Positions 2,886 to 19,097 of a stretch of DNA of 20,023 nucleotides are shown piece after piece. A model generated the notes under the pieces. The model was not told the DNA's origin, made no database searches, and worked only from the letters and a program-made list of their open reading frames with translations. Location: positions 1-20,023 of the IMG/VR virus record IMGVR_UViG_3300046454_000232; one strand, 5' to 3'. Numbering within the stretch: the stretch's first letter is position 1; the number at the start of each line of letters is the position of its first letter. The DNA comes from a virus. The position numbers were made by a program, and so were the translations under genes.

Positions 2886-3223
2886 CGCTTTCGATCGTTG
2901 ACGGACCAACCATCTTGGCAGGTGAGTCGCTTTCCGATGGTGCGGATTGCTCCGGCGGCAACCTGCTGCGTATCACAGTGCCGCAGGAGTATACCAAAGG
3001 CAATATGACGTTTCAGGTATCGGCGGATGGCAATGGGTATAACGATCTCTACGATGTGGACGGTGATGAGATCACTATCTCTGCCAGCCCTGATACTACC
3101 ATCGTGGTCCGAGAGGAATGGACCAAGTCATTCAATTTCATAAAGCTGCGATCTGGCACTCGGCAGCATCCGGTGCAGCAGGAGGTCGATTGCAAGTTTG
3201 CTCTTGCAGTTGAAATCGCATGA
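2882..3223 (+). CDS. Small beta-rich phage head-region protein, unknown function
   Basis: A 113-residue acidic, beta-rich protein without a recognised enzyme motif. It has a W-T-K-S-F-N-F-I-K-L-R-S-G-T segment near residues 80-93, a pattern I associate with small phage virion proteins that sit beside capsid genes. It overlaps its neighbours by ATGA at both ends (2882-2885 and 3220-3223), with GGAGG at 2871-2875 supporting the ATG start. Together with the preceding beta-rich gene it forms a pair just upstream of the protease::capsid fusion, so a head decoration or assembly role is possible. This is inference from position. Confidence 0.65.
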   Translation: MTLSIVDGPTILAGESLSDGADCSGGNLLRITVPQEYTKGNMTFQVSADGNGYNDLYDVDGDEITISASPDTTIVVREEWTKSFNFIKLRSGTRQHPVQQEVDCKFALAVEIA

Positions 3224-5328
3224 AGGTTCGTACCGTCTTAGAACCAGAAGACGACGAGTCCTACGAGGACTTCATGGATCGTTGCGGCGATGAGCTCGAT
3301 GACGATGCTTGCCAAATTCTCTGGGATGATCGAGCCGCTAAAGGTGTAGTTCATCGTACCCATGCCGCTGAAGTGCAAGGCATGGAATTCGTGATGTCCG
3401 ATGAAACCCAGGATCGCATGCAAGATGTCATCATGTCGGATGGCTGGGATCTGGCAAACTTCAAGCGCAATCCTATTGCGTTGTTCGGTCACCGCAGTGA
3501 CTTCCCGATTGGTAAGTGGAGTAATCTGCGGGTTGAGAATAAGCAACTCAAGGGTCACCTGGAGTTGGCACCAGAAGGTACTTCAGATCGCATTGACGAG
3601 ATCCGGCGATTGATTGCAGCCGGAATTCTTAAGGCAGTGTCGGTAGGTTTCCGCCCGACCGAGAAGAAGCTTCTTGATGAGGATGCCGATAAGTACTGGG
3701 GTCCATTCCGGTTCCTTAAACAGGAGCTCGTGGAGACTTCACTGGTGTCGGTGCCTGCCAATCCTAATGCCTTGGCGGTTGCCAAGTCGCTCAGAATTTC
3801 CCCCGCAACACTGGACATGGTCTTTGCCAAGCAAGGCAATAAAGATCCTGTTGAGCGTCGCAGGTTCATCGGCAAGCAAGCCGTTATGAGTAATGCTAGA
3901 CAGGGAGTAGTGACTATGTCACTCTCGCAACGTGTTCAAGACGCTGAGAAGCGCCTGACGGAGTGCAAAGATGCACTCAATGCACTGTTAGAGAAGGTCG
4001 ATGACAGCAATGTCAGTGATGACCAACTCGAGCAAATCACTAAGTTGAATGCCGATATTGCCAAGGAGGAACGCAGCCTAGGCGTGCTGCGTGAGTCTGA
4101 GCGGCATCTGGCTGCGACTGCTGAGGCTCCGGGGCGTGCGATCGTTCCGGCAGCAGCGGTGCTGCCGACGGCAAAGGGGAGCACTGCCTTCACGCAACAG
4201 CCTCGGCCATTTGGCATGGCTCCGAAGAAACTTGCTCCACTCGACTTGTTAGTGCGTGCGGGTACCGTGCAATTGTTCTCGCATCTCCACAAAAAGCCGG
4301 TGGATGAAATTCGTCGTACCATCTATGGCGACGATGAGCAAACTCGTGTGGTTACTGAATGGGCGGTGCGAGCCGCTTCTGCACCAGCTATGACTACGGT
4401 AGTTGGCTGGGCGGCGGAGCTCGTTCAACAGATCGTTGTTGCGTTCATGGAAACGCTGATGCCGAAGTCAGTATTTCCGCGACTGTCAGCAGCCGGTTTG
4501 TCATTGACGTTCGGAACGAATGGCAAGATCATCATTCCGACTCGTGCACGTACCCCAACGATTGCCGGCTCGTTTGTTGGTGAAGGGTTGCCTATTCCGG
4601 TTCGTCAGGGTTTGTTCACTTCGCAGACCTTGACGCCAAAGAAGATGGCAGTCATCACGACCTGGACGCGGGAAATCAGTGAACATTCCGTTCCTGCTAT
4701 CGAGGGACTGTTGCGGAATGCCATTGGTGAAGATACTGCCGTCTCGCTCGACGCAGTGTTACTTGATGCTAATCCGGCAACGCTCGTTCGTCCTGCTGGT
4801 ATTCTCAACGGTGTTGCTGGACTCACGCCAACGGCTGGCGGTGGTTTCAACGCTCTCGTTGGTGACATCAAGCAAATCAGCGGTGCGCTGCTCACTGGCA
4901 CTGCTGGTAACGTACGCAATCCAGTTTGGCTGATGAACCCGCAACAGTTGAATAGTGCGGGTTTGATTGCCATGCCGGGTGTTGGGGTTTTCCCGTTCCG
5001 TGACGAAATCAGTTCTGGCCGTCTTGGCGGCTGGCCGATTATCGATGCGGGTACGGTGCCGATGGGTACCGTCATTGCCATGGATGCTGCGGACTATGTC
5101 AGCGTCTCTGGTGATGCCCCGCGATTTGAGGTCAGCGATCAGGCAACCCTTCACATGGAGGACACTTCGCCGACTGATCTCACCACAGCGGGTACTCCAG
5201 CCGTTGCGGCGTTCCCGATGAAGTCTATGTTCCAGACTGACTCGTTGGCGCTGCGGTTGATCCTGCCGGTTAACTGGACCATTCGTCGTACAGGAACTGT
5301 TGCATGGGTGGCCGGAGTTACCTGGTAG
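3220..5328 (+). CDS. HK97-type prohead protease fused to major capsid protein
   Basis: One 702-residue protein joins two genes that are usually separate. Residues ~50-190 are an HK97-type prohead (S78/U35) protease: F-G-H-R-S-D with candidate catalytic H91, A-G-I-L-K-A-V-S-V-G-F with candidate S141, and the E-L-V-E-T-S-L-V-S-V-P-A-N-P-N-A block (169-184) that closes these domains. Residues ~233-300 form a charged helical, probably coiled-coil, delta (scaffold-like) region. Residues ~335-702 are the HK97-fold capsid protein, with segments such as P-K-S-V-F-P-R-L-S, a K-K-M-A-V-I-T-T-W-T-R-E stretch and a W-x-x-N-P segment near 570. Self-cleavage should release the domains. M233 (ATG 3916) has an excellent ribosome site, so capsid may also be made separately. 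Protease and capsid parts both appear intact. Confidence 0.93.
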   Translation: MKVRTVLEPEDDESYEDFMDRCGDELDDDACQILWDDRAAKGVVHRTHAAEVQGMEFVMSDETQDRMQDVIMSDGWDLANFKRNPIALFGHRSDFPIGKWSNLRVENKQLKGHLELAPEGTSDRIDEIRRLIAAGILKAVSVGFRPTEKKLLDEDADKYWGPFRFLKQELVETSLVSVPANPNALAVAKSLRISPATLDMVFAKQGNKDPVERRRFIGKQAVMSNARQGVVTMSLSQRVQDAEKRLTECKDALNALLEKVDDSNVSDDQLEQITKLNADIAKEERSLGVLRESERHLAATAEAPGRAIVPAAAVLPTAKGSTAFTQQPRPFGMAPKKLAPLDLLVRAGTVQLFSHLHKKPVDEIRRTIYGDDEQTRVVTEWAVRAASAPAMTTVVGWAAELVQQIVVAFMETLMPKSVFPRLSAAGLSLTFGTNGKIIIPTRARTPTIAGSFVGEGLPIPVRQGLFTSQTLTPKKMAVITTWTREISEHSVPAIEGLLRNAIGEDTAVSLDAVLLDANPATLVRPAGILNGVAGLTPTAGGGFNALVGDIKQISGALLTGTAGNVRNPVWLMNPQQLNSAGLIAMPGVGVFPFRDEISSGRLGGWPIIDAGTVPMGTVIAMDAADYVSVSGDAPRFEVSDQATLHMEDTSPTDLTTAGTPAVAAFPMKSMFQTDSLALRLILPVNWTIRRTGTVAWVAGVTW
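3902..3918 (+). promoter_or_regulatory. Internal ribosome site and start for scaffold-capsid product
   Basis: AGGGAG at 3902-3907 lies 8 bases before an in-frame ATG at 3916 (M233 of the fusion; M-S-L-S-Q-R-V). The site falls exactly at the junction between protease and delta/capsid regions. This is one of the better Shine-Dalgarno/ATG pairs in the window, stronger than several gene starts. Initiation here would give a 470-residue protein lacking the protease and raise the capsid to protease ratio. Seen directly: motif, spacing and frame. Use of the start is inferred. Confidence 0.55.
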
Positions 5329-5363
5329 CCTGGGTACTTTCCATTGTTGGTAATATAGTGCAT

Positions 5364-5393
5364 GGTGCTCTCCTTAGAAAATAGGAGAGCACC
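5364..5393 (+). promoter_or_regulatory. Perfect hairpin sequestering the HNH gene ribosome site
   Basis: The arms GGTGCTCTCCT (5364-5374) and AGGAGAGCACC (5383-5393) are exact reverse complements, giving an 11-bp stem with an 8-base loop (TAGAAAAT). The right arm begins with AGGAGA, the Shine-Dalgarno sequence for the ATG at 5395. When the transcript folds, the ribosome site is fully paired and the start codon abuts the stem. There is no U-run after it, so it is not a terminator. Known parallel: T4 I-TevI is kept silent on early transcripts by a hairpin over its ribosome site. A TATAGT hexamer at 5354-5359 might be a -10 element, but no convincing -35 is visible. Confidence 0.8.
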
Positions 5394-5394
5394 T

Positions 5395-6072
5395 ATGTCA
5401 CAGTCACTAGTCGGCCAACGTTTTGGAAAGTTGATAGCCCTGAAAGAGGTTTTGCGTATTAAGAATCGACGAGCTTTTAAATTTCAATGCGATTGTGGAA
5501 TAAAGTGTGTCAAGCATTTGAGTGCAGTTGTTGCAGGACGTACACGATCGTGTGGATGTTTGAAACGTGAAAATATTGGAGATAGAACGCGAACGCATGG
5601 TATGTCAACGACACCAACTTATAAAACCTGGTGTGGGATGCGTAAGCGATGCTATAGCCAAAATAGTAAGTCCTACGCTGATTACGGTGGACGTGGTATT
5701 AGGGTTTGTAAGCGGTGGCAGAAGTTTGTAAACTTTCTTGCGGATATGGGAGAGCGTCCGACACTGGAGCATGAAATTTCGCGTATCAATAACAATAAAG
5801 GGTATCAACCCGGTAATTGTGAGTGGACGATTGATGGTGTTGCGCAGACTAGAAATAGACGAAAACAGAAATATCATTCAAACCGTGGGAAGGCAACTAG
5901 CCGATTTCGTGGTGTTGACTTGTGGGCAGGTAAACTCTGGCGAGCTCGCATTGCATTAAGAGGGAAAGTTAAGTACCTTGGTACTTTTAGAAAAGAAACG
6001 GAAGCTGCTCGAACTTACGACAAGGTTGCGCGTTTACACCGGGGATTCATTTTGAATTTCCCAGAACTGTAG
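5395..6072 (+). CDS. HNH homing endonuclease with C-terminal AP2 domain
   Basis: A 225-residue, free-standing selfish endonuclease of the phage HNH/AP2 type. Residues 32-55 hold cysteines in a C-D-C-G ... S-C-G-C arrangement (C32, C34, C53, C55), a likely zinc ribbon. The nuclease core includes H-E-I-S-R-I-N-N-N at 126-134 and the hallmark G-Y-Q-P-G-N-C-E-W at 136-144. Residues ~169-223 match an AP2 DNA-binding domain: S-R-F-R-G-V, W-R-A-R-I, Y-L-G-T-F, E-A-A-R-T-Y-D and terminal N-F. I chose ATG 5395 because AGGAGA at 5383-5388 precedes it and the conserved fold begins there; an in-frame ATG at 5362 lacks a ribosome site. The gene looks more A+T-rich than its neighbours, fitting horizontal insertion between capsid and the next structural gene. 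Its TAG (6070-6072) merges with the AGGAG site of the following gene. Confidence 0.92.
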   Translation: MSQSLVGQRFGKLIALKEVLRIKNRRAFKFQCDCGIKCVKHLSAVVAGRTRSCGCLKRENIGDRTRTHGMSTTPTYKTWCGMRKRCYSQNSKSYADYGGRGIRVCKRWQKFVNFLADMGERPTLEHEISRINNNKGYQPGNCEWTIDGVAQTRNRRKQKYHSNRGKATSRFRGVDLWAGKLWRARIALRGKVKYLGTFRKETEAARTYDKVARLHRGFILNFPEL

Positions 6073-6573: not shown

Positions 6574-7974
6574 ATGACGCTTAGAAGTACCGTTGCGAGT
6601 ATTATTCGACCGATACTACGAGCGGTCGAAGGCGATTACCGTCCCGGTCCTTATTATCTGCCAGTGAGTGGTGGCACGTTACCAGCAGGTAGTCCGATTA
6701 CCTGGTGGCAGAATGGCGGCAGTATTCAACGTGGTGCTCCCTCCGCAATGGTAGACGCCTGCATTAATGCCTACAGTCAAACCACTGCAATGTGTCCAGG
6801 TGATCACTGGCTAAGTGATGACGAAGGTGGTCGAGACCGTGTGATGACTTCAGACTTGTCGCGCATTCTCCGTGCGCCGAATGAATACCAATCCATCAGT
6901 GATTTTATGTTGAATGCAGTGCGTTCGCTTTACGCAGATGGCAATTGCTATGCGCTAGCGTTGCGCAACAGCCGTTTTGAGATTGCGTCATTGCATCTCA
7001 TGCACCCAGGCAATAGCATGCCGTATGTTGCTGAGAATGGGGAGATCTTTTTCTCATTGGGTGGCAATCCTGTTATCGATCGCGTAATACCAGAAATGGA
7101 TTTGGTGCCTGCGCGAGATGTGCTGCATATCAAGATGAACACCACAGCTTTTGATCTACGTGGTGTCAGTCCGCTGGTTGCGCTGGTTCGAGATATGGCA
7201 GTCAGTGACGCGATCGGTAATCAACAATTGAATTTTTACATGAACCAGGCGCGACCGAGTATTGTGCTTTCTACAGATCTGCGGTTGGATCGAGAAACTA
7301 CCGACATGCTGCGGCAGAAGTGGGATGAGCATTCACGCGGTGTCGGGATCGGCGGTACGCCTATTCTGTCATCTGGCTTAAAACCTTATCCGATGCAGAT
7401 AAATTCTGTGGACGCGCAACTTGCAGACGTGATGAAGATTTCTGACTCGCGTGTTGCAATGGCATATCGTATCCCGCTGCAGATGTTTGGGTTAGGGAGT
7501 GGTCCGGTTGGCTCTACCGAGGCACTAATGCAAATGTGGATTTCTACGGGATTGGGCTTTTGCTTAAACCACGTAGAAGAAGCCATGGGAAACTTCTTTA
7601 AGCTCAATGGCGTCCCAGAAGAATATCTCGAATTTGATACGTCTGCGCTCTTGCGATCTGCTTTCAAGGATCGTGTGGAGGCTTACGCACGATCGGTGCA
7701 AGGAGGAATTCATGCACCGAATGAGGCGCGTGCTGCATTCGATATGGAACAAGTAGCTTACGGTGACGAACCGCGCGTACAGCAGCAGGTCGTTCCATTG
7801 AGTGCAGCGGGAAAAATCCCAGCGAGCCCAGCACCGGGTGCGCCACCGCCAGCACCGGCAGCGGCGGAGGTTAAACCACCGCAGCCTAGTGAACCAAAAG
7901 GCATTACCGATGCTGACAGATCAATCCTCCTCAGTCGCTTCAGATCATCGCATGCCCGTAGCATCTCCGTTTGA
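6574..7974 (+). CDS. HK97-family portal protein
   Basis: Dodecameric ring at the capsid vertex through which DNA enters and leaves, and the nucleus of head assembly. The 466 residues follow the HK97 portal pattern: a W-W-Q-N-G segment, early helices with C-I-N-A-Y-S-Q-T-T-A, the G-N-C-Y-A-L-A-L wing strand, I-K-M-N-T-T-A-F-D-L-R-G-V-S-P-L and Y-M-N-Q-A-R-P-S-I-V-L-S blocks, then R-I-P-L-Q-M-F-G and a C-terminal F-K-D-R-V-E-A-Y (from F364) ... P-N-E-A-R segment. Residues ~415-443 are a proline/alanine-rich, probably disordered tail. Family members usually precede protease and capsid; here the gene follows the capsid, separated by the HNH gene and a small ORF. Its 3' end overlaps the collagen-like gene by 65 bases. 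Confidence 0.93.
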   Translation: MTLRSTVASIIRPILRAVEGDYRPGPYYLPVSGGTLPAGSPITWWQNGGSIQRGAPSAMVDACINAYSQTTAMCPGDHWLSDDEGGRDRVMTSDLSRILRAPNEYQSISDFMLNAVRSLYADGNCYALALRNSRFEIASLHLMHPGNSMPYVAENGEIFFSLGGNPVIDRVIPEMDLVPARDVLHIKMNTTAFDLRGVSPLVALVRDMAVSDAIGNQQLNFYMNQARPSIVLSTDLRLDRETTDMLRQKWDEHSRGVGIGGTPILSSGLKPYPMQINSVDAQLADVMKISDSRVAMAYRIPLQMFGLGSGPVGSTEALMQMWISTGLGFCLNHVEEAMGNFFKLNGVPEEYLEFDTSALLRSAFKDRVEAYARSVQGGIHAPNEARAAFDMEQVAYGDEPRVQQQVVPLSAAGKIPASPAPGAPPPAPAAAEVKPPQPSEPKGITDADRSILLSRFRSSHARSISV

Positions 7975-8920
7975 GTTGCTTGCGGAGGAATTAGGTGCCG
8001 TCGCAGGACGGATAGAACGGGAGTCAGCTTCTAAGATTGCTGCGCTCGTTGCAGATGTGGGTCGCCGGTTTGCAGAACATGAATTGCAAATTGAGCGGCT
8101 GCAGAAGGCACTTGAAGGTGCGATAGCACAACGTATTAATGTTTGGGATCAACTGATCAATGACAAACTGTCATCACTGTGTGATGGTGAGGATGGCCTT
8201 CCGGGCAAAGATGGCATCGATGGCGAGGACGGTGCGCCTGGTAAGGACGGCATTGACGGGAAGGACGGTCTCCAGGGAGTACCAGGAAAGGATGGCGCGG
8301 CAGGTGCAGCAGGACAAGATGGCGCGGCAGGCAGTGCGGGAGTTGATGGCAAAGACGGTAAGGACGGCAGTAACGGCAAAGACGGTGTCGCAGGAAAATT
8401 ACCCAAAGTAAGAGTTTGGAAGGAAGGGGTTTGGTACGACGGTGATGTGGTGCGCCATGTTGGCGGCACGTACCAAGCTGAACGCGATACCGCAGCCACT
8501 CCTGGTTCGAGCGTTGATTGGATTTGTCTTGCTGCTGCTGGGTTGGATGGCGAGGACGGCAAAGATGGAGCAGACGGTAAGTCATTAACGATCCGAGAGA
8601 CGTTTGATCCAACACATAAGTATAGTGCACTAGATGTTGTGACGCTCGATCACAAGTGGTTTGTTGCTAAGGTTGATGATCCAGGGATGTGTCCGGGTCC
8701 TGGCTGGAAGGCGGGTCCTGGGATCGGCCGCACCGGCAAGCCGGGAGAGCCTGGACCGAGGGGGGAGCAAGGTCCAGCCGGTGCGATGATTACGGAATGG
8801 GAAATTCAAGCTAAGACGTTTGAAGCCATTCCTATTATGAGTGATGGCACTGCTGGTTCACCGTTGCAGCTTCGGGAATTGTTTGAGCAGTTTCAAATGG
8901 AGGGCGGCGATGCATTCTAG
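7910..8920 (+). CDS. Collagen-like phage fibre/decoration protein with binding modules
   Basis: A 336-residue modular protein. Residues ~20-75 are a helical, probably coiled-coil trimerisation stretch. Residues 93-162 are 24 unbroken Gly-X-Y triplets, many G-K-D or G-x-D, as in bacterial and phage collagens. Residues ~165-207 have a W-x-x-G-V-W-Y-x-G-D-V-V pattern with G-x-Y-Q-A and a terminal W, like CBM5/12-type carbohydrate-binding modules. A short collagen stretch follows (211-223), then a second similar but diverged module (~228-268), and a third run of triplets (273-291). A trimeric head fibre or decoration binding sugars is the likely role. I use ATG 7910, preceded by AAAGG at 7897-7901; an open frame further upstream lies in the portal gene and is low-complexity basic sequence. 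ATG 7952 is an alternative. Confidence 0.85.
   Translation: MLTDQSSSVASDHRMPVASPFELLAEELGAVAGRIERESASKIAALVADVGRRFAEHELQIERLQKALEGAIAQRINVWDQLINDKLSSLCDGEDGLPGKDGIDGEDGAPGKDGIDGKDGLQGVPGKDGAAGAAGQDGAAGSAGVDGKDGKDGSNGKDGVAGKLPKVRVWKEGVWYDGDVVRHVGGTYQAERDTAATPGSSVDWICLAAAGLDGEDGKDGADGKSLTIRETFDPTHKYSALDVVTLDHKWFVAKVDDPGMCPGPGWKAGPGIGRTGKPGEPGPRGEQGPAGAMITEWEIQAKTFEAIPIMSDGTAGSPLQLRELFEQFQMEGGDAF
8186..8395 (+). repeat. Collagen Gly-X-Y coding repeat, 24 triplets
   Basis: A degenerate 9-base unit (GGN-NNN-NNN) recurs without interruption, with many copies close to GGC AAA GAC. It encodes the main collagen-like segment of the fibre gene. Such tracts often change length by slippage or recombination, so copy number may differ between related phages. 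Shorter tracts of the same kind lie at about 8540-8580 and 8726-8785. Confidence 0.85.
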
Positions 8921-11371: not shown

Positions 11372-12901
11372 ATGCCCATCTCTTTTAGTCAGATACCGGC
11401 AAATTGGCGCATGCCATTGTACTGGGTCGAGTTGGATCCATCGAAAGCCGGACTTGGTACTTTTGCTGGGCGTTCATTGCTTGTTGGAATTATGAACACC
11501 ACAGCGGGAGCCGGTAAAGGAACAGCAATACCGGACGTTCCGATTGCCGTTGCATCACAGGCGCAGGCTGATGCGTTGTTCGGTCAAGGCTCAATGCTCT
11601 CTGGAATGTTCAAGGCTTTCTACGCCAACAATTGGGCGAACGAAGTCTGGGCTTTGCCGGTCTCTGAGCCGACTGGTGCTGCTGCTGCCGGTGCAATTGT
11701 AGTAGCGACGGGACCGACAGCCGCTGGAATAATTGATCTTTATATCGCTGGCCGCAACGTTCCGGTCTACGTTGGTGCAACTGATACCGTTACACAAATT
11801 GGTACGTCAATCGCCGCAGCCATTACCGCAGATCCTAATCTGCCGGTGACTGCTATTGCCACGGCGGGTTCGGTTGCGGTGACTGCTAAGTTCAAGGGTA
11901 CTCCTGGCAATGATATCAAACTGAGCGATAGTTATTACGGCACTGTCGGAGGCGAACAGCTTCCGCAGGGTGTGACGATGACTTATACACAGCCGACTGG
12001 TGGTGTCGGTGATCCGCTCTTTACGACTGCCATTAGTAACCTTGGCGAAACAGAAGTAGATTACGTCTGCATGCCGTTCACTGACTCCACGTCAATGCTG
12101 GCGTGGGAAACAGAATTCGGTTTTGGTGATACCGGACGTTGGGGATTTATCCGGCAGCACTATGGGCAGATCTTTAATGCCAAGCGAGGCATCTACTCCG
12201 ACCTGTTGGCGTTTGGCGACACGCGCAACAGTGCCCAGATGTCTGTGATGGGTATTGAGGTTGGCAGTCCAACGCCAACTTATGAATGGGCGGCAGCTTA
12301 CACTGCGAAAGCTGCACGTGCATTGCTCAACGATCCTGCTCGTCCATTGCAGACGTTGTCGTTGGAAAGTTGTCTGCCTGCGCAAAGTCATTATCGGTTC
12401 TTGTTGTCGGAATTGAATGCGCTGGCCTACAGCGGCATCGCGACCCAGCGCACGATGACTACGGTGCCGGTGATCATGCGGGAAACTACCACCTACACCA
12501 AGAATCTTTATGGCAATACCGACGATGCATATGAATTGGTGACAACTCCAGCAACACTGACCAAGCTGTTGCGCAATCAGCGACAGGCGATCACCAGCAA
12601 ATTCCCGCGTCACAAACTTGCTGATGATGGCACCAGGTTCGGTGCCGGGCAGGCGATCGTAACTCCTAAGATCATCAAGGCGGAGCTCGTTGCGGAATAC
12701 CGTATTGATGAGTTCAATGGGTTGGTGGAGAACGGTAAGGCATTCAAGGCCAACTTGATTGTCGAACGTGACCCCAACGATCCAAACCGCGTTAACGTTC
12801 TCTATCCGCCTGACCTGATTAATCAGTTGCGGGTGTTCGCGGTACTTGCTCAGTTCAGGCTGCAGTATGATCGCGGTCTGGATACTGTCATCGCAGCGTA
12901 A
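11372..12901 (+). CDS. Contractile tail sheath protein (Mu gpL-like)
   Basis: Subunit of the contractile sheath that surrounds the tail tube and drives it through the host envelope. The 509 residues match the Mu gpL-type sheath in order and style: N-terminal I-S-F-S-Q-I-P-A-N-W-R-M-P-L-Y, a G-R-S-L-L-V-G strand, A-F-Y-A-N-N-W-A-N-E-V-W-A-L-P, the variable domain with repeated V-A-T/V-T-A strands, and then D-Y-V-C-M-P-F-T-D with G-R-W-G-F-I-R-Q-H-Y-G. A long C-terminal region ends in strands that normally link neighbouring subunits (F-N-G-L-V-E-N through F-K-A-N-L-I-V-E-R-D). Its ribosome site AAGGAGGG (11360-11367) is the strongest in the window, in keeping with a protein needed in many copies. 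The length is normal. Confidence 0.93.
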   Translation: MPISFSQIPANWRMPLYWVELDPSKAGLGTFAGRSLLVGIMNTTAGAGKGTAIPDVPIAVASQAQADALFGQGSMLSGMFKAFYANNWANEVWALPVSEPTGAAAAGAIVVATGPTAAGIIDLYIAGRNVPVYVGATDTVTQIGTSIAAAITADPNLPVTAIATAGSVAVTAKFKGTPGNDIKLSDSYYGTVGGEQLPQGVTMTYTQPTGGVGDPLFTTAISNLGETEVDYVCMPFTDSTSMLAWETEFGFGDTGRWGFIRQHYGQIFNAKRGIYSDLLAFGDTRNSAQMSVMGIEVGSPTPTYEWAAAYTAKAARALLNDPARPLQTLSLESCLPAQSHYRFLLSELNALAYSGIATQRTMTTVPVIMRETTTYTKNLYGNTDDAYELVTTPATLTKLLRNQRQAITSKFPRHKLADDGTRFGAGQAIVTPKIIKAELVAEYRIDEFNGLVENGKAFKANLIVERDPNDPNRVNVLYPPDLINQLRVFAVLAQFRLQYDRGLDTVIAA

Positions 12902-12932: not shown

Positions 12933-13295
12933 ATGGCTCAGAGAATAGCAGGGATTGCCTATCTCAAGGTTGATGGCAATCAGTACCCGTTGCGTGGTAA
13001 CTTTACTATCACGCCATCGGTAATCGAGCGTGCTGGCCTTGCTGGCCAGGATTACATTCATGGCTACAGTGAACTGCCGAGGGTGCCTTCGATTGAAGGC
13101 GATGTCTCGACAGTGCCGGGTCTCTCGATCGAAGATTTCGAGGCTCAGGTTAATGTGACTGTGACTGCAGAGTTGGCTAATAATGCCACGTACGTGTTGC
13201 GTGAGGGTTGGTGCGTATCGGCCCTTGCTATCAATGCCCGTGACGGCTTAGTCCGGGTGAAGTGGGAAGGTGTTAGCTGCGATGAGATCCAATAG
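12933..13295 (+). CDS. Tail tube protein (Mu gpM-like)
   Basis: A 120-residue tube subunit, stacked as rings inside the sheath to form the DNA channel. The sequence follows the Mu gpM/Tail_tube family: A-Y-L-K-V-D-G strand, R-G-N-F-T-I-T-P, E-R-A-G-L-A-G-Q-D-Y-I-H-G-Y, P-S-I-E-G-D-V-S-T, and a C-terminal G-L-V-R-V-K-W-E-G strand. AGGAAAGGG at about 12917-12925 supports the ATG. It ends at a single TAG (13293-13295) in the same reading frame as the downstream chaperone, and that frame is open and protein-like from the next codon onward, which is unusual and is discussed as a finding. Confidence 0.9.
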   Translation: MAQRIAGIAYLKVDGNQYPLRGNFTITPSVIERAGLAGQDYIHGYSELPRVPSIEGDVSTVPGLSIEDFEAQVNVTVTAELANNATYVLREGWCVSALAINARDGLVRVKWEGVSCDEIQ

Positions 13296-13340: not shown

Positions 13341-13622
13341 GTGATACCGCTGCGCAAGAAGGTCATTGCGCATGGTGAAGAAATTCAGGAGTTGAAGTTT
13401 CGTGAACCAACTGCTGGGGATATTGAAATCTGTGGCACGCCAGTTATGATTGATTTTATGTCTGGTGAGCAGCCGAAGATGACATTCGAGACCAAAGCGA
13501 TGTTTGCTATGATGTCTCGGTTGGCTGGAGTGCCGCCGTCTACGATCAAATCATTGCATCCAAAGGACTGGGGATACGCAGCCCTTGCTCTCGCTCATCG
13601 TTTTTTTATTCCAGAGATGTAG
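13341..13622 (+). CDS. Tail assembly chaperone, 0-frame product (Mu gp41-like)
   Basis: Short form of the tail assembly chaperone that coats the tape-measure protein during tube assembly. From the GTG at 13341 it is 93 residues. The E-L-K-F-R-E-P-T-A-G-D-I-E motif (residues 17-29) and the later M-M-S-R-L-A-G-V-P-P-S-T-I and D-W-G-Y-A-A-L-A-L helices are typical of Mu gp41-type chaperones. It ends at TAG 13620-13622, just after a run of seven Ts. The start is uncertain: the frame is open back to codon 13296 with sequence that reads like the true N-terminus (T-D-P-K-K-V-N-G-T-E-V), but it contains no ATG, and the GTG has only a weak ribosome site. Confidence 0.82.
   Translation: MIPLRKKVIAHGEEIQELKFREPTAGDIEICGTPVMIDFMSGEQPKMTFETKAMFAMMSRLAGVPPSTIKSLHPKDWGYAALALAHRFFIPEM
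13601..13607 (+). promoter_or_regulatory. Programmed -1 ribosomal frameshift site (T TTT TTT)
   Basis: Seven Ts are set as T TTT TTT relative to the chaperone frame (codons TTT 13602-13604 and 13605-13607), which exactly fits the X XXY YYZ slippery rule. Slipping back one base places the ribosome in the frame that stays open to 13780, as in other tape-measure chaperone pairs. GAGGGAGG at 13622-13629 lies 14 bases downstream; I see no clear stimulatory hairpin. Confidence 0.85.
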
Positions 13623-13780
13623 AGGGAGGTTTTATTCTGGATTGTTATCGGCTGGCAAAATACTATGGGCGCAACCCGCGTGAGTTTCTTGATATGCCGT
13701 TCTCAGAAATAGAGCGGCATATTAACTGGACAACCAAGCTAGAAGAGATACTTCGGCCGGTGGACCCTAGCGATGGCTGA
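13607..13780 (+). CDS. -1 frameshift extension of the tail assembly chaperone
   Basis: After slippage at the T7 run, 57 further residues are read to TGA 13778-13780, giving a fusion of about 146 residues from GTG 13341. The extension contains D-C-Y-R-L-A-K-Y-Y-G-R-N-P-R-E-F-L-D-M-P (from ~13640), a motif typical of the second half of Mu gp41-type chaperones, then I-N-W-T-T-K-L-E-E-I-L-R-P. In known phages the long form is made at low level and binds the tape measure through this part. No ATG or GTG in this frame could start the conserved block alone, which argues for frameshifting. It overlaps the first tape-measure start by 8 bases. Confidence 0.85.
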   Translation, partial: YSRDVEGGFILDCYRLAKYYGRNPREFLDMPFSEIERHINWTTKLEEILRPVDPSDG

Positions 13781-15776
13781 TAATGATTTTGATTCTGATG
13801 CGATGCTGGCCTTTTTTGGTCAGATGGGGAAAGGTATTGATGAGTTAAAGACCAAGGTCACCAACCTAAATCAGGCTGGTGATGCTATGAAGAAGATGAC
13901 GCATGAGACCGAGCGTTTCGGTCAAGCCGTCAACCGGCAAGTCACCGGCTCTCTTCGTGGCATGGAGACTTCTTTTGTTGGCGTGATTGGTGGTGTTAGC
14001 AGCATTGCGTTAGGAATGTTTGGTGTTGCTAAAGCCCTAGACAGTTTTGCCATCAGCCAATTGCGTTCTAGAAATTTTGGGATAGACACCGGGTTCACTC
14101 ATGGTGTTAAAAATTTGCGGATCCAATTGTCAGCAGCAGGAATTGCAGCAGACGAGGCGTCACAGGGTATAGCTAATATTGGCGGCAAGCTTCAGGAGGT
14201 GTTAGCTCTTCAAGAGACCTCACCTTTCTATAAAGCATTGCAAGCTAGCAATCCGTTGATGGCGGAGAATGTTCGTCATCTGGTAAATGCGGGCAAGCAG
14301 CAAGAGGCTTTGAATTATCTCCAAGAGATGTTCAATAAAGGTGGCGAGCGGTTCAAGGCTTGGCTCCCAACTGTTACGGGTATGTCCAGGTCTATGTGGG
14401 AAGCGCAAGCGAATGGAATGAAAGGATTGATTGAGGGGTGGCATTTTAGTAAGGATGAAGCTTTAGCATATCAAAAGTCAATGGTTAATCTCGGTACGAT
14501 TTTTGATGGCGTCTGGACATCAATGACATATACGATGCTTGGCGGTATTAATAAAATAATTTTAGGCGAAGGTAGTATGGATGATTTAAATAAAAAAGCC
14601 GAGAAGCTCACTGTTGATTTTAAGAAATTCTTCGATACGAATGTCATACCAACTCTGAAGACCACTCTTCAGGAAGCCAAGGCTATTTTTAATTTTATAG
14701 AAAGCATGGCTCCAGATGCACCTGAGCAACCAGGAGATAAGGAACGGACTGAGAGTGCGAATGAGTGGTATGACTGGTTATTTGGAACTGGTCCTGGTGC
14801 TGGAAGAGAAAAAGGTAATCTCGCTGCTGACGCTGGACTTAATGATATCGGTAGCAATCCAATTGAATTGAGCAAGGATGCCAATAGCTCAATTCGTGAT
14901 ATGCGGGATATTCTGAAAAAGTGGGAGCTTGATCAAGGTGGCTTTGGTGGAGGCAAGGTTAATCTTGGTGGTGGAATAGCTGCAGCGAACGGTGGCGGCA
15001 CTGGCGCAGGTCAGGGTGGTTGGAGTGCTGGTGGTAGTCCCGAAGCCAATCAAGGCGGTCCAGTCGGATTAAGTGATCAGTCAGGACGTAAGATTGATCC
15101 GGAGACGATGCGGCAGGCGGAAATCCTTGGACGTGCCGGAAATGTGTTAGGGTTGGAGAAATTATTTAGTCAAAAAGGTTATCGCATGAGTGGGCCAGCT
15201 TGCGGGATGGTCGCCACTCAGTACGTTAAATCTGCTGGTTTCCAGCCGCCAACGGGTTCAGCGATTGCTACGTCATGGCATAAATGGGGTGAGAAGATGG
15301 ACCCCAATGCTATTAACGATCCTGAGCATCCATTTGGTAGTATGGTTGGTACTTATTGGCATCGTCGTTATGGGGGTAACAGGGGAGAGATACTGAAGCC
15401 AGGTCAGACTGGCGGGCATGTTATGACTATCGTTCCTGGCTCTTATAATCCAAAAACAGGAACGGTTGACGTTGTTGATCAGTATGGATACTCGCATGGC
15501 AAGCGTGATATTAAAGATCTGGATTTACGATATGCTGGAGCCGCTGCAGTAGCTGCCGCCAAGGCTCGAGCCGCTGGCGGAACAACAGATAGAGGTCCGC
15601 TTGATAAAGCTATTGCTACGCCAGTTGCACCAAAGGCAATTTCTGATTTGCTTATCAATTTTAAGAACGTGCCGGAAGGTGTGAAGACCGATGCTTCTGC
15701 GACCGGCAACGCTTTCAGCGGTGTTAAGATGAGCAGAGAAAATCAATACAAGTTCGGTGAAGCCGATGCCCGGTGA
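13773..15776 (+). CDS. Tape-measure protein 1 with C-terminal papain-like (Cys/His) domain
   Basis: A 667-residue protein directly after the frameshifted chaperone, where the tape measure that sets tail length is encoded. Residues 1-300 are mostly helical with a hydrophobic G/V/I-rich stretch (~66-90). Residues ~390-440 are a Gly/Ser/Ala-rich linker. Residues ~468-590 look like a papain-fold (NlpC/P60- or CHAP-like) hydrolase: S-G-P-A-C-G-M-V-A-T-Q-Y with candidate C477, T-G-G-H-V-M-T-I-V with H549, and V-D-V-V-D-Q-Y-G with D569. This would cut peptidoglycan peptides or amide bonds during injection. The last ~45 residues repeat a strand pattern (I-N-F-K-N-V-P-E-G-V) common at tape-measure ends. 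The first 300 residues are closely related to the next gene. The hydrolase family is inferred from motif order. Confidence 0.85.
   Translation: MADNDFDSDAMLAFFGQMGKGIDELKTKVTNLNQAGDAMKKMTHETERFGQAVNRQVTGSLRGMETSFVGVIGGVSSIALGMFGVAKALDSFAISQLRSRNFGIDTGFTHGVKNLRIQLSAAGIAADEASQGIANIGGKLQEVLALQETSPFYKALQASNPLMAENVRHLVNAGKQQEALNYLQEMFNKGGERFKAWLPTVTGMSRSMWEAQANGMKGLIEGWHFSKDEALAYQKSMVNLGTIFDGVWTSMTYTMLGGINKIILGEGSMDDLNKKAEKLTVDFKKFFDTNVIPTLKTTLQEAKAIFNFIESMAPDAPEQPGDKERTESANEWYDWLFGTGPGAGREKGNLAADAGLNDIGSNPIELSKDANSSIRDMRDILKKWELDQGGFGGGKVNLGGGIAAANGGGTGAGQGGWSAGGSPEANQGGPVGLSDQSGRKIDPETMRQAEILGRAGNVLGLEKLFSQKGYRMSGPACGMVATQYVKSAGFQPPTGSAIATSWHKWGEKMDPNAINDPEHPFGSMVGTYWHRRYGGNRGEILKPGQTGGHVMTIVPGSYNPKTGTVDVVDQYGYSHGKRDIKDLDLRYAGAAAVAAAKARAAGGTTDRGPLDKAIATPVAPKAISDLLINFKNVPEGVKTDASATGNAFSGVKMSRENQYKFGEADAR
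13785..14669 (+). repeat. Paralogous tape-measure N-terminal region, copy 1
   Basis: Residues 5-299 of tape measure 1 align along their whole length with residues 4-301 of tape measure 2. Shared blocks include D-F-D-S-D-A-M-L-A-F, Q-E-V/D-V-L-A-L-Q-E-T-S, N-A-G-K-Q-Q-E-A-L-N, G-G-E-R-F-K-A-W-L-P-T-V-T and D-G-V-W-T-S-M-T-Y-T-M. DNA identity is patchy, strongest at the very start and in the middle, which points to an old duplication. Confidence 0.85.
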
Positions 15777-18012
15777 TTTTGACTCTGATGCCATGCTGGC
15801 CTTCATCGGCCAGATGGGTAAAGAGGTTGATAATTTAAAAACCAAGATCGCTGGTCTCAATGAGGCTGGCGGTAAAGGCATGGGCAACCTTGCCAACGAG
15901 ACCGAGCGGTTCGGCAAGGTCATTCAGCGTTATACCGCAGGTCCTGTCAAGGCGATGGATGCGGCGGTTGCTGGATTAACCAAGACCTTAGTCGGTGCTG
16001 GTGGACTGGCTCTTGGTCTGGCGGGTGTAGCTAAGGCTTTTGATACCTTTGCTGTTGGTGAATTGAAGATAAAGAATTTTGCCACCAATACAGGATTTTC
16101 CGTAGACAGTATTAAAAATCTTAGGGTGCAATTGGCTGCGGCTGGCATTGATGCGGGTGCAGCATCACAGGGCATAGCGGGTATCGGTGCTAAGCTCCAA
16201 GATGTTTTGGCGCTGCAAGAGACATCCTCATTTTATAAATCGCTGCAGGCAAGCAGCCCAGCACTGGCTGAACAAATCCGGCATCTTATGAATGCTGGTA
16301 AGCAACAAGAAGCATTGAATGTTTTGCAAGAGGCTTATAACCATGGAGGCGAAAGATTTAAGGCTTGGTTGCCAACTGTTACTACTTATTCCAGGGCTGC
16401 TTTTGAAGCAGGCATAGTTGGAATTAAAGGTTTGATTGAGCCGTGGAAATTTAATGACGAGGAAGCCAGAAATTATCATAAGACGATGACTAATTTAGGA
16501 ACTGTTACGGATGGTGTTTGGACCAGTATGACGTACACTATGATCGCAAGTATTAATAAGATGATCGGCGCTGAAGGGATGGAGAAGCTTAATCAAAAGG
16601 CGCATGATTTTGCGGATGGATTTAAGGGATTTTTCGCTACTTACGTATCACCAACGCTTTCGACGACTAAGGAAGAATTTGGTTGGGTAGTAGATGCGCT
16701 TGCAAAGGTTGACGAATACATTACAAAATTAACTGGTGGCGATACCAAAGAAGGTGAAACACCAAGCGGTGATTCAACAGGTCGTCTTGCGAAATTTTTA
16801 AGAGAAGATATTTGGAAGCGTAGGCCAGCAGACGCTCCACCGCCACCGAGTATTGGTGATGATATTAGCGGTGCTTGGAATTGGTTGAAGAAGAATATGA
16901 GCTTCACTTCAGAAGCGCATGCTGATACGCTTCCCCTTGGTACTATGCCGATGGCAGGTACCGCAAAGGATGTTGCCGAGGTTGATAAGGACTCCAACAA
17001 ATTACTAGGCGACATGCGCGACACGCTGCAGAAATGGGATCAGTTGCGGGAGGGTGTTACGGCGGGCGGCGGTGGTACTCAAATGGCTAGCCTTGGTCCC
17101 GGTGGTGGTGCATTGGGTGCAACGGGTGACAATCCCGCTGGCGGTGGCGGACGTGGCGCTAGTCGCGGCGGTAATACTAGTACGGGCGGTCCGCCAGGAG
17201 CCGAGGGTCCAGTCTCAACTGAAGATCCAGGAGCAGGCTTGCAAGGTTCGGATTATCTAGCGGCGCGACGCGCTTCGCAGATGAAGGAGATTGAAAACAA
17301 TCCGCAATTGAAGTTGGCAATTGCGGCGATGGTAACAAAGGAGCATGAGAGCGATCCTGTTGCTGTCATGGAAAGCTTGGCTAATCGTACTGACTACGTT
17401 AATTCAGAACGGGCCAAGCAGGGACTTCCTCCGGTATCGTTGCAGCAGATGTTGATGGGTAAACCCGGTGGCAAAAGTTTCTATGGGCCAATTAGGAGTG
17501 GTCAGTTGCCTGGAGCAATGGCTGCTCTGCAAAATGATCCAAAGCGATTACAGAGAATTTATGACGCGATGGGTCAGGTTTATGCAGGTAGCAACGTACT
17601 TCAGGGTGCGACAGATCAGGGCAGTGGTAACGATCCTAACGTGGCTTGGGGAGGCGGCAAGGTTGTACGTCATGGTGAGACCTACAATGACTTTGGTGGT
17701 GGTCCTGGTGGTCATGAAGGTGCGCGACGTTATCGTGAAGCGTTGCAAAAAGGTGTTCGTGAAGGTAAGGGCTTTCCTATTGCTGGGCAGCCAAATCGAG
17801 GCGCAGCGATTGATGCAGCTTTGCGTAATTATTATGGTGCCGGTGGGGCTACTGGCACTGCACGAGTAGATGTGGATTTCGGTGATCAAGCAGCGAAGAA
17901 GCCCTTGATGAGTGGTGCCTCACCATTTATTCCAACCCATGTTCATCGTGCACCACAGGCTCCACTCGCTGGCGGCAGTGCCTCTTCTTATACGCAATAT
18001 GCTTTTGAATAG
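15766..18012 (+). CDS. Tape-measure protein 2 with a different C-terminal hydrolase-like domain
   Basis: A second tape-measure-type protein (748 residues from ATG 15766) overlapping the first by 11 bases. Residues 4-301 are homologous to tape measure 1. A proline-rich stretch (~353-362) and a Gly-rich linker (~434-480) follow. Residues ~510-655 form a domain unlike that of copy 1: A-I-A-A-M-V-T-K-E-H-E-S-D (candidate catalytic E526 or E528), V-M-E-S-L-A-N-R, S-L-Q-Q-M-L, then F-Y-G-P-I-R-S-G and H-G-E-T-Y-N-D-F-G-G-G-P-G-G-H. The E-x-x-x-A-N-R order recalls SleB-like or lytic transglycosylase-like wall hydrolases acting on glycan strands. The ATG at 15766 lines up with the start of copy 1 (M-x-x-D-F-D-S-D-A-M); a GTG at 15757 is a weaker alternative. 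Confidence 0.82.
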   Translation: MPGDFDSDAMLAFIGQMGKEVDNLKTKIAGLNEAGGKGMGNLANETERFGKVIQRYTAGPVKAMDAAVAGLTKTLVGAGGLALGLAGVAKAFDTFAVGELKIKNFATNTGFSVDSIKNLRVQLAAAGIDAGAASQGIAGIGAKLQDVLALQETSSFYKSLQASSPALAEQIRHLMNAGKQQEALNVLQEAYNHGGERFKAWLPTVTTYSRAAFEAGIVGIKGLIEPWKFNDEEARNYHKTMTNLGTVTDGVWTSMTYTMIASINKMIGAEGMEKLNQKAHDFADGFKGFFATYVSPTLSTTKEEFGWVVDALAKVDEYITKLTGGDTKEGETPSGDSTGRLAKFLREDIWKRRPADAPPPPSIGDDISGAWNWLKKNMSFTSEAHADTLPLGTMPMAGTAKDVAEVDKDSNKLLGDMRDTLQKWDQLREGVTAGGGGTQMASLGPGGGALGATGDNPAGGGGRGASRGGNTSTGGPPGAEGPVSTEDPGAGLQGSDYLAARRASQMKEIENNPQLKLAIAAMVTKEHESDPVAVMESLANRTDYVNSERAKQGLPPVSLQQMLMGKPGGKSFYGPIRSGQLPGAMAALQNDPKRLQRIYDAMGQVYAGSNVLQGATDQGSGNDPNVAWGGGKVVRHGETYNDFGGGPGGHEGARRYREALQKGVREGKGFPIAGQPNRGAAIDAALRNYYGAGGATGTARVDVDFGDQAAKKPLMSGASPFIPTHVHRAPQAPLAGGSASSYTQYAFE
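15775..16668 (+). repeat. Paralogous tape-measure N-terminal region, copy 2
   Basis: Counterpart of 13785-14669. The boundary of similarity falls just after a conserved S/T-P-T-L-x-T-T segment (residues ~295-301); beyond it the linkers and enzyme domains are unrelated. Both copies later share a short helix before the Gly-rich linker (D-M-R-D-x-L-x-K-W-x; residues 376-385 of copy 1 and 416-425 of copy 2). Confidence 0.85.
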
Positions 18013-18014
18013 TC

Positions 18015-19097
18015 ATGGCGAAGATAACAGAGACTGCAGTCTTAACTGTTAAAGGTAGGGACTATAATGATTGGGAGAGCGTTTCAGTCAAGCATCAGTT
18101 GCGGGAAATGCCTGCGATGTCTTGCCGGTTTACTTGCAGCGAAGGTTCGCCTTTAGCTAAATTGCTCTCTATGATGCAGATCATGCCTGGTGATCCTTGT
18201 ACGGTTACGCTTGCGGGAATTCTGGCTTTTACTGGTAAGGTGACTACGCGGCAGGTCGTAGTAGATGCGCGAAGGCATCACATTGAAATCCAATGCGCTA
18301 ACAATGTTCCATTGGCAACATCGAGTGTTATTTCAAAGACTGGAGAATGGAAAGACAAAACACCAGAGCAGATTATTCGTGATGTGTTGAAGCCGCTTAA
18401 GATAAATTTGAAGATCGAGGGAGGCTCGTTACCCAACTTTAAGATACCACGTTATTCTGCTACTCCAGGTGAGTCGGTACACGATTTCATTGATACGTTG
18501 ACGCGGCATCTTGGTAAGGCTGGCAGCAAGATTGGTATTGCACATGCTGGTAATCCGCAAGGTGATTTTTGTATTCTTGTTGATGGACTTGGCGGTGGTG
18601 ATACGCTGACCGAAGGCAAGAATATGCTGGAGGGTCGTGAAGTTATTTACGATCCTAATCAAGCGGGCGGAGTGCCGTCACCTAATCAAGGTCCTGGTGA
18701 TAATCAGAATTGGGGTGCAAAGGTATCGCATACTCCGTTTGAAAATAAAGGCTTCTTAACATATGGTGCCAAGATCATTCCTGGTGTTGTCGTTCCTGAA
18801 ATTCCTTTCATGGGCAAGGAGCTTCATGAGGGACGCGCTACATCGGAAAGCAATTGGATGATGGAAGCTTACGTTACGGTCTATGGGACGGTGCATGGCT
18901 GGCTGAAACCGTCAGGTGGATTGTGGGAACGTGGGAAGGAAGTAACGGTGAATTCTCCGATGCTGGTGATGAATGGTATTCCGTTAATTCTAAAGAGTGT
19001 CACTTTCAGCCAGGATAATTCAACTGGTACTCGTAGTGTGCTTGAATTAGTGAACACCAAGGCTCTAGGGGAGGGCGTGCCAACGCCAAGCCAATGA
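18015..19097 (+). CDS. Baseplate hub protein (Mu gp44/gpP-like)
   Basis: A 360-residue protein matching the Mu gp44 (gpP) hub, which forms a ring at the tube end and anchors the spike; relatives include P2 gpD and T4 gp27. Visible features are an N-terminal W-E-S-V-S-V-K-H-Q-L-R-E strand pair, M-P-G-D-P-C-T-V-T-L followed by G-K-V-T-T-R-Q-V-V-V-D-A-R-R-H, the P-E-Q-I-I-R-D-V-L helix near 116-124, an E-S-V-H-D-F-I-D-T-L segment (154-163), and the C-terminal W-x-x-G-K-E-V-T-V-N-S-P-M hub strand. It begins 2 bases after the second tape measure. Its stop overlaps the spike start as ATGA (19094-19097). Length is normal. Confidence 0.88.
   Translation: MAKITETAVLTVKGRDYNDWESVSVKHQLREMPAMSCRFTCSEGSPLAKLLSMMQIMPGDPCTVTLAGILAFTGKVTTRQVVVDARRHHIEIQCANNVPLATSSVISKTGEWKDKTPEQIIRDVLKPLKINLKIEGGSLPNFKIPRYSATPGESVHDFIDTLTRHLGKAGSKIGIAHAGNPQGDFCILVDGLGGGDTLTEGKNMLEGREVIYDPNQAGGVPSPNQGPGDNQNWGAKVSHTPFENKGFLTYGAKIIPGVVVPEIPFMGKELHEGRATSESNWMMEAYVTVYGTVHGWLKPSGGLWERGKEVTVNSPMLVMNGIPLILKSVTFSQDNSTGTRSVLELVNTKALGEGVPTPSQ

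Follow-up and report, generated by a model that had tools for sequence, protein, structure and literature searches.

The standing picture of the phage tail is that of one tape measure gene per tail, whose product forms a homo-oligomer. Tape measure proteins (TMPs) can also carry a wall enzyme, as in mycobacteriophage TM4. Along the same lines, the tape measure of phiCbK carries a CHAP domain (PMC3556154) and that of phiIPLA35 a muramidase, according to work cited in PMC6116005. These three phages share with the locus described here the placement of an enzyme on the TMP, but they have a single TMP with a single enzyme. The tail protein CwlP (YomI) of SP-beta combines lysozyme and endopeptidase domains (PMC5380687) and thereby joins glycan- and peptide-cutting enzymes on one chain, whereas our phage has two paralogous TMPs for which these activities are predicted. 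On the structural side, the trimeric TMP gp42 of phage Mu meets hub and spike via its last residues, 674-690 (PMC11915804), and the TMP of JBD30 is a trimer too (PMC11445458).

The stretch of DNA analyzed here, referred to as the window, comprises 20,023 bases; Pfam and PHROG matches identify it as part of a phage with a contractile tail, whose tail module resembles those of SfV and Mu. Its tail genes are arranged in the order sheath, tube, chaperone, two long TMP genes, and a gpP/gp44-type hub (Table 1). The contractile tail is common to SfV (TMP orf14) and Mu (TMP gp42), and in SfV the genes likewise run from sheath over tube and chaperone to the TMP. SfV and Mu, however, have one TMP gene. 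Where SfV encodes a DNA-circularisation protein between TMP and hub, the window has its second TMP; a DNA_circ_N gene is kept elsewhere in five related records, four in or near the lineage of the window plus the more distant contig L084.

Table 1. Features of the tail module, in window positions.
Feature	Position	Strand	Evidence or remark
Contractile tail sheath	11372..12901	+	PF17482, PF04984, phrog_165 E 3e-162
Tail tube protein	12933..13295	+	PF10618 E 1e-31
Tail assembly chaperone of G/E type (TAC), one gene ahead of the two TMPs	13341..13622	+	PF10109 E 1.8e-9
Slippery site TTTTTTTA, -1 frameshift	13601..13608	+	Same site in L016 and L041
TMP1, papain-type tape measure, 667 aa, ATG start	13773..15776	+	
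N-terminal tape-measure region of TMP1, common with TMP2 (59% identity)	13785..14675	+	Alignment, tree
Papain-like (possibly NlpC/P60-type) module of TMP1, Cys477/His549/Asp569/Gln570	15099..15542	+	Alignment, invariance, VIA-align
C-terminal F-N-x-P-x-G element of TMP1, without long tail	15648..15740	+	
TMP2, putative glycan-type tape measure, 751 aa from GTG, 748 aa from ATG 15766	15757..18012	+	phrog_2276
N-terminal tape-measure region of TMP2	15775..16677	+	Alignment
Exchangeable putative glycan-cutting module of TMP2, invariant Glu539 and Asn543 (GTG numbering)	17269..17736	+	Alignment
Conserved C-terminal tail RAPQAPLAGGSASSYTQYAFE of TMP2, without F-N-x-P-x-G element	17947..18009	+	
Baseplate hub (gpP/gp44-like), next after the TMP pair	18015..19097	+	PF21683, PF22255, phrog_177

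Both TMP genes follow the tube and the frameshifting chaperone and precede the hub, a position that fits tape measures. They overlap by 20 nt if TMP2 starts at its GTG, or by 11 nt from the ATG. An earlier note on this DNA had described adjacent, overlapping genes with a common N-terminal half of about 300 residues followed by unrelated modules, and this description holds: 178 of 302 aligned residues are identical (59%, E 1e-102), the similarity ends near residue 305, and the enzyme regions are wholly different. Homology reappears briefly in the linker (KDxN...DMRD..KW) and at the C-terminus. At the DNA level the N-terminal parts are only 67-73% identical, and this in pieces, so that the two genes represent a diverged duplication and not a collapsed repeat. 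Profile matches place both genes with tape measures, directly or through close relatives. TMP2 matches phrog_2276 (tail length tape measure, E 6.7e-7); TMP1 of the window has no direct tape-measure PHROG match and is linked to the family through its identity with TMP2.

How widespread is this arrangement? Searches with a family profile yielded 50 loci and with a papain-module profile 52, all on uncultured viral contigs. A papain-type TMP followed directly by a glycan-type TMP occurs in 27 IMG/VR contigs besides the window, with no exception where TMP1 is complete and enough DNA follows. A second, divergent lineage of nine contigs carries the same two kinds of TMP in reversed order, and three contigs (L005, L026, L036) have a single glycan-type TMP only. 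The more distant contigs L079, L082 and L084 possess their own paralogous TMP pairs with other modules, including a TIGR02594-like domain on the first TMP of L079; the N-termini within these pairs are 58%, 28% and 52% identical over the parts aligned by BLAST, respectively. A further contig, L080, whose start is cut off, resembles L084. Other phages with adjacent tape measures that share an N-terminus, which the note had proposed to look for, occur among these uncultured contigs. Among named phages tblastn returned no relative of the TMPs, the sole match being the glucosaminidase of L079; relatives of the TMP family or the papain module were also absent from genome contigs, and our literature searches found no paper on paired paralogous tape measures. 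Judged by sequence, the conserved pair is real; neither the papers searched nor the named phages yielded a counterpart. Its carriers are uncultured bacterial viruses from soil that make up a family.

An assembly artefact was rejected, since a near-identical record (L004, IMGVR 3300046718_000052; one mismatch over 6,730 bases) contains the same two genes and the 27 further contigs show the same order. A decaying copy was rejected because dN/dS is low in both genes. It is true that, upstream of the pair, 31 bases present in the near twin are missing from the window, which would suit an artefact or a decaying duplicate. Many metagenomes, however, have contributed dozens of contigs in which the frames are open, the junctions conserved and dN/dS values low, and we regard such an origin as extremely improbable. 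The gap itself concerns the chaperone. In L004, 31 extra bases at window position 13294 supply an ATG that overlaps the stop of the tube gene (TAATG). The window lacks these bases, and with them the true start of the chaperone, either because they were lost from the phage genome or because the assembly is faulty.

The frameshifted, extended chaperone (GT/E') runs to a stop at 13778-13780, and L016 and L041 have comparable extensions. The TMP1 stop overlaps the TMP2 start, as TAATG or TGATG, in the majority of the window's lineage. Values of dN/dS are about 0-0.17 for the N-terminal part and the module of both genes, rising to 0.30 where the TMP2 module belongs to a different subtype. Both TMP genes are under strong purifying selection. 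Together with the overlapping stop and start and the one chaperone with its conserved slippery site, this selection suggests that both TMPs are made and used. But are both of them rulers? One could argue that only one is, probably TMP2 with its hub-side tail, while the other would be an ejected enzyme carrier, residing in the tail lumen or bound to the hub with its TMP-like part as an anchor. The missing tail of TMP1 speaks for this, as does the fact that TMP2 alone matches a tape-measure PHROG in the window. Yet the shared part is equally strongly constrained in both copies, and a papain-type relative from the reversed lineage (protein B of L041) matches the tape-measure family phrog_9570 (E 6e-4). 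We consider a single ruler rather unlikely.

For the enzyme region of TMP1, the predicted papain-like triad Cys477/His549/Asp569 is found at just these positions and is invariant in 33 of 33 complete distinct copies; Gln570 is likewise invariant in every complete distinct copy. The module has no sequence match in Pfam, PHROG or the PDB, and Foldseek returned nothing at E below 0.001. With a structural model of low confidence (pLDDT 52), the top ten VIA-align matches are Tse1/Tae1 amidases (PA1844/Tse1 itself included), Spr, or NlpC/P60 proteins at Z 6.2-7.1. The weak model of the TMP1 module is closest to NlpC/P60-type wall amidases and peptidases; the module has the Cys-His-Asp order in common with Tse1/Tae1, Spr (MepS) and NlpC/P60 peptidases, albeit in the absence of a sequence match. 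Related papain modules are found on the same chain as other enzymes: a PF00959 (GH24) lysozyme in L081 and in the second TMP of L082, a PF01832 glucosaminidase in the second TMP of L079, and TMP2-type modules in the first TMPs of L084 and L080.

The TMP2 module is harder to place. A SleB- or transglycosylase-like domain centred on Glu526/Glu528 had been suggested, but these residues vary across relatives; the invariant residues are Glu536 (539 counted from the GTG) and an Asn four positions on. Neither SleB/Hydrolase_2 (PF07486) nor a transglycosylase profile matches any of 16 members of the module or the window's record, and direct SleB membership was rejected. More generally, no match was obtained in Pfam, NCBIfam, PHROG, the PDB or by fold: for a weak model (pLDDT 56) there was no PDB match, with nothing from Foldseek at E below 0.001 and nothing from VIA-align. 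The broader idea of a glycan enzyme has indirect support. The module is probably glycan-cutting, a view based chiefly on the partnership of papain modules with GH24 and glucosaminidase domains in cis, and the proposed pairing of a peptide- with a glycan-cutting enzyme on TMP1 and TMP2 is supported as a prediction.

Can we reconstruct how the pair came about? In a tree of the N-terminal parts, the TMP1s of the window's lineage form one clade and the TMP2s another, together excluding the reversed lineage, whose two copies group with each other. Either each lineage therefore acquired its duplication independently, or the pair is old and its members were homogenised afterwards in one lineage as in the other. 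A topology uniting the window-lineage TMP1s with the papain-type TMPs of the reversed lineage was rejected (p-AU 0.0003), as was one in which the papain modules follow the N-terminal tree. In the papain-module tree neither the TMP1 copies (p 0.019) nor the reversed-lineage copies (p 0.003) form one clade. This departure from the N-terminal tree, and the contrast between L008 and L016 with near-identical N-termini and very different TMP2 modules, shows that enzyme modules were exchanged by recombination. The scenario of duplication followed by domain exchange is thereby borne out, with diverged paralogous N-termini, unrelated modules and module recombination across relatives.

A further pattern emerges at the C-termini. 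In single TMPs of the same family, an F-N-x-P-x-G element comes first and a tail of about 17 residues, RSPQAPAAGGAVTTFNEWAFE, closes the chain, both being present in 3/3; the lone TMP of SfV ends with a V-x-F-x-N-x-P-P-G element like that of TMP1. In paired phages of both the window-order and the reversed lineage, these features are divided: papain copies have the element without the tail (the pattern finds 22 of 23; the remaining one, MNNVPPGV, was recognised by eye) and glycan copies the tail without the element (15/15). As the patterns were written after the sequences had been seen, these counts serve as a description of the split, not as a test. Neither a named phage nor any paper that came up shows such a division. 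Since gp42 of Mu has its final residues inside hub and spike, the split falls at the expected contact with the tail tip. By analogy, the C-terminus is more likely to contact the hub than the shared N-terminus, which had been proposed as a hub-binding site; the copies differ, in complementary fashion, precisely at the end that reaches hub and spike in Mu. The split resembles subfunctionalisation, that is, duplication followed by complementary loss, at least in its sequence pattern, but a transfer of whole C-terminal halves could yield the same pattern.

What does this imply for the tail? The note had left a choice between a mixed bundle and two tail-length classes. A reading close to the latter is that there are two kinds of virion with one TMP per tail, which would deliver either a peptidase or a glycan enzyme as a form of bet-hedging on hosts, perhaps with two tail lengths. 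The homotrimeric TMPs of Mu and JBD30 and the different total lengths of TMP1 and TMP2 agree with such an arrangement. On the other hand, the shared region has only six gaps over 302 residues, the extra length lying in linkers and modules, so that length classes are not favored. Moreover, in related phages a single polypeptide carries the two types of enzyme, an indication that one tail needs both, and the hub-side elements are split such that neither copy alone has the set of a single TMP. Two kinds of virion thus appear distinctly unlikely. The mixed bundle stands as a possible state and is favored over two tail classes because the C-termini are complementary. Against it, a homotrimer as in Mu would leave no obvious place for a second kind of TMP, and the division of the C-termini might reflect nothing more than their being carried along with the modules in recombination, with no shared complex involved.

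We propose the following course of events. The TMP gene of a Mu/SfV-like contractile-tailed phage was duplicated, as the sequences indicate, and both copies retained the N-terminal part, which would span the tube. On TMP1, the F-N-x-P-x-G element accompanies a papain-like, putative peptidase module; on TMP2, the C-terminal tail goes with a module that is exchangeable and probably cuts glycan. One frameshifting chaperone would serve both proteins, and their overlapping genes are presumably translated together. Most likely both then enter the same tail as a mixed bundle whose C-termini jointly touch hub and spike; we infer this mainly from how the C-terminal elements are divided and from the enzyme combinations in cis. 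Upon contraction both would be released, and peptidoglycan would be cut in its peptide by one and in its glycan by the other, an end that phages with both enzyme types on one TMP may reach in cis. Taken as a whole, this reading of duplicated TMPs, a mixed bundle in one tail and two wall enzymes has a somewhat better than even chance of being correct. The stronger version, an obligately heteromeric tape measure in which paralogues with partial C-termini co-assemble and which arose or was re-assembled several times with opposite gene order, falls slightly short of even. If true, the two wall enzymes would come as a constant set in every virion. With a pair that is conserved and whose ends complement each other, several questions become testable: can the ruler be heteromeric, how is copy number set, and which of the C-terminal parts bind hub and spike? 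The pair also shows how enzyme modules, in cis or in trans, are exchanged while the tail backbone stays conserved.

Some minor observations complete the picture. The second TMPs of L084 (9242-11677) and L080 (1720-4524) have, by eye, a C-terminal H-x-x-x-A-x-D / H-L-H stretch similar to D-Ala-D-Ala peptidases, a putative third enzyme type on paired tape measures. TMPs of L076 and L082 (first copy) end in a stretch that by eye resembles RlpA/3D-type lytic transglycosylases; a Pfam scan covering the L082 protein gave no match. In the head region of the window, a free-standing ORF of 236 aa between the capsid and portal genes (5362-6072) has the look of an HNH/AP2 homing-type endonuclease by eye, without a Pfam match; L090 has a comparable ORF in the corresponding position (11693-12160). 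One 702-residue gene (3220-5328) combines a PF04586 prohead protease with a PF05065 major capsid protein, and a collagen-like repeat protein (PF01391) is encoded between the portal and head-tail genes (7802-8920).
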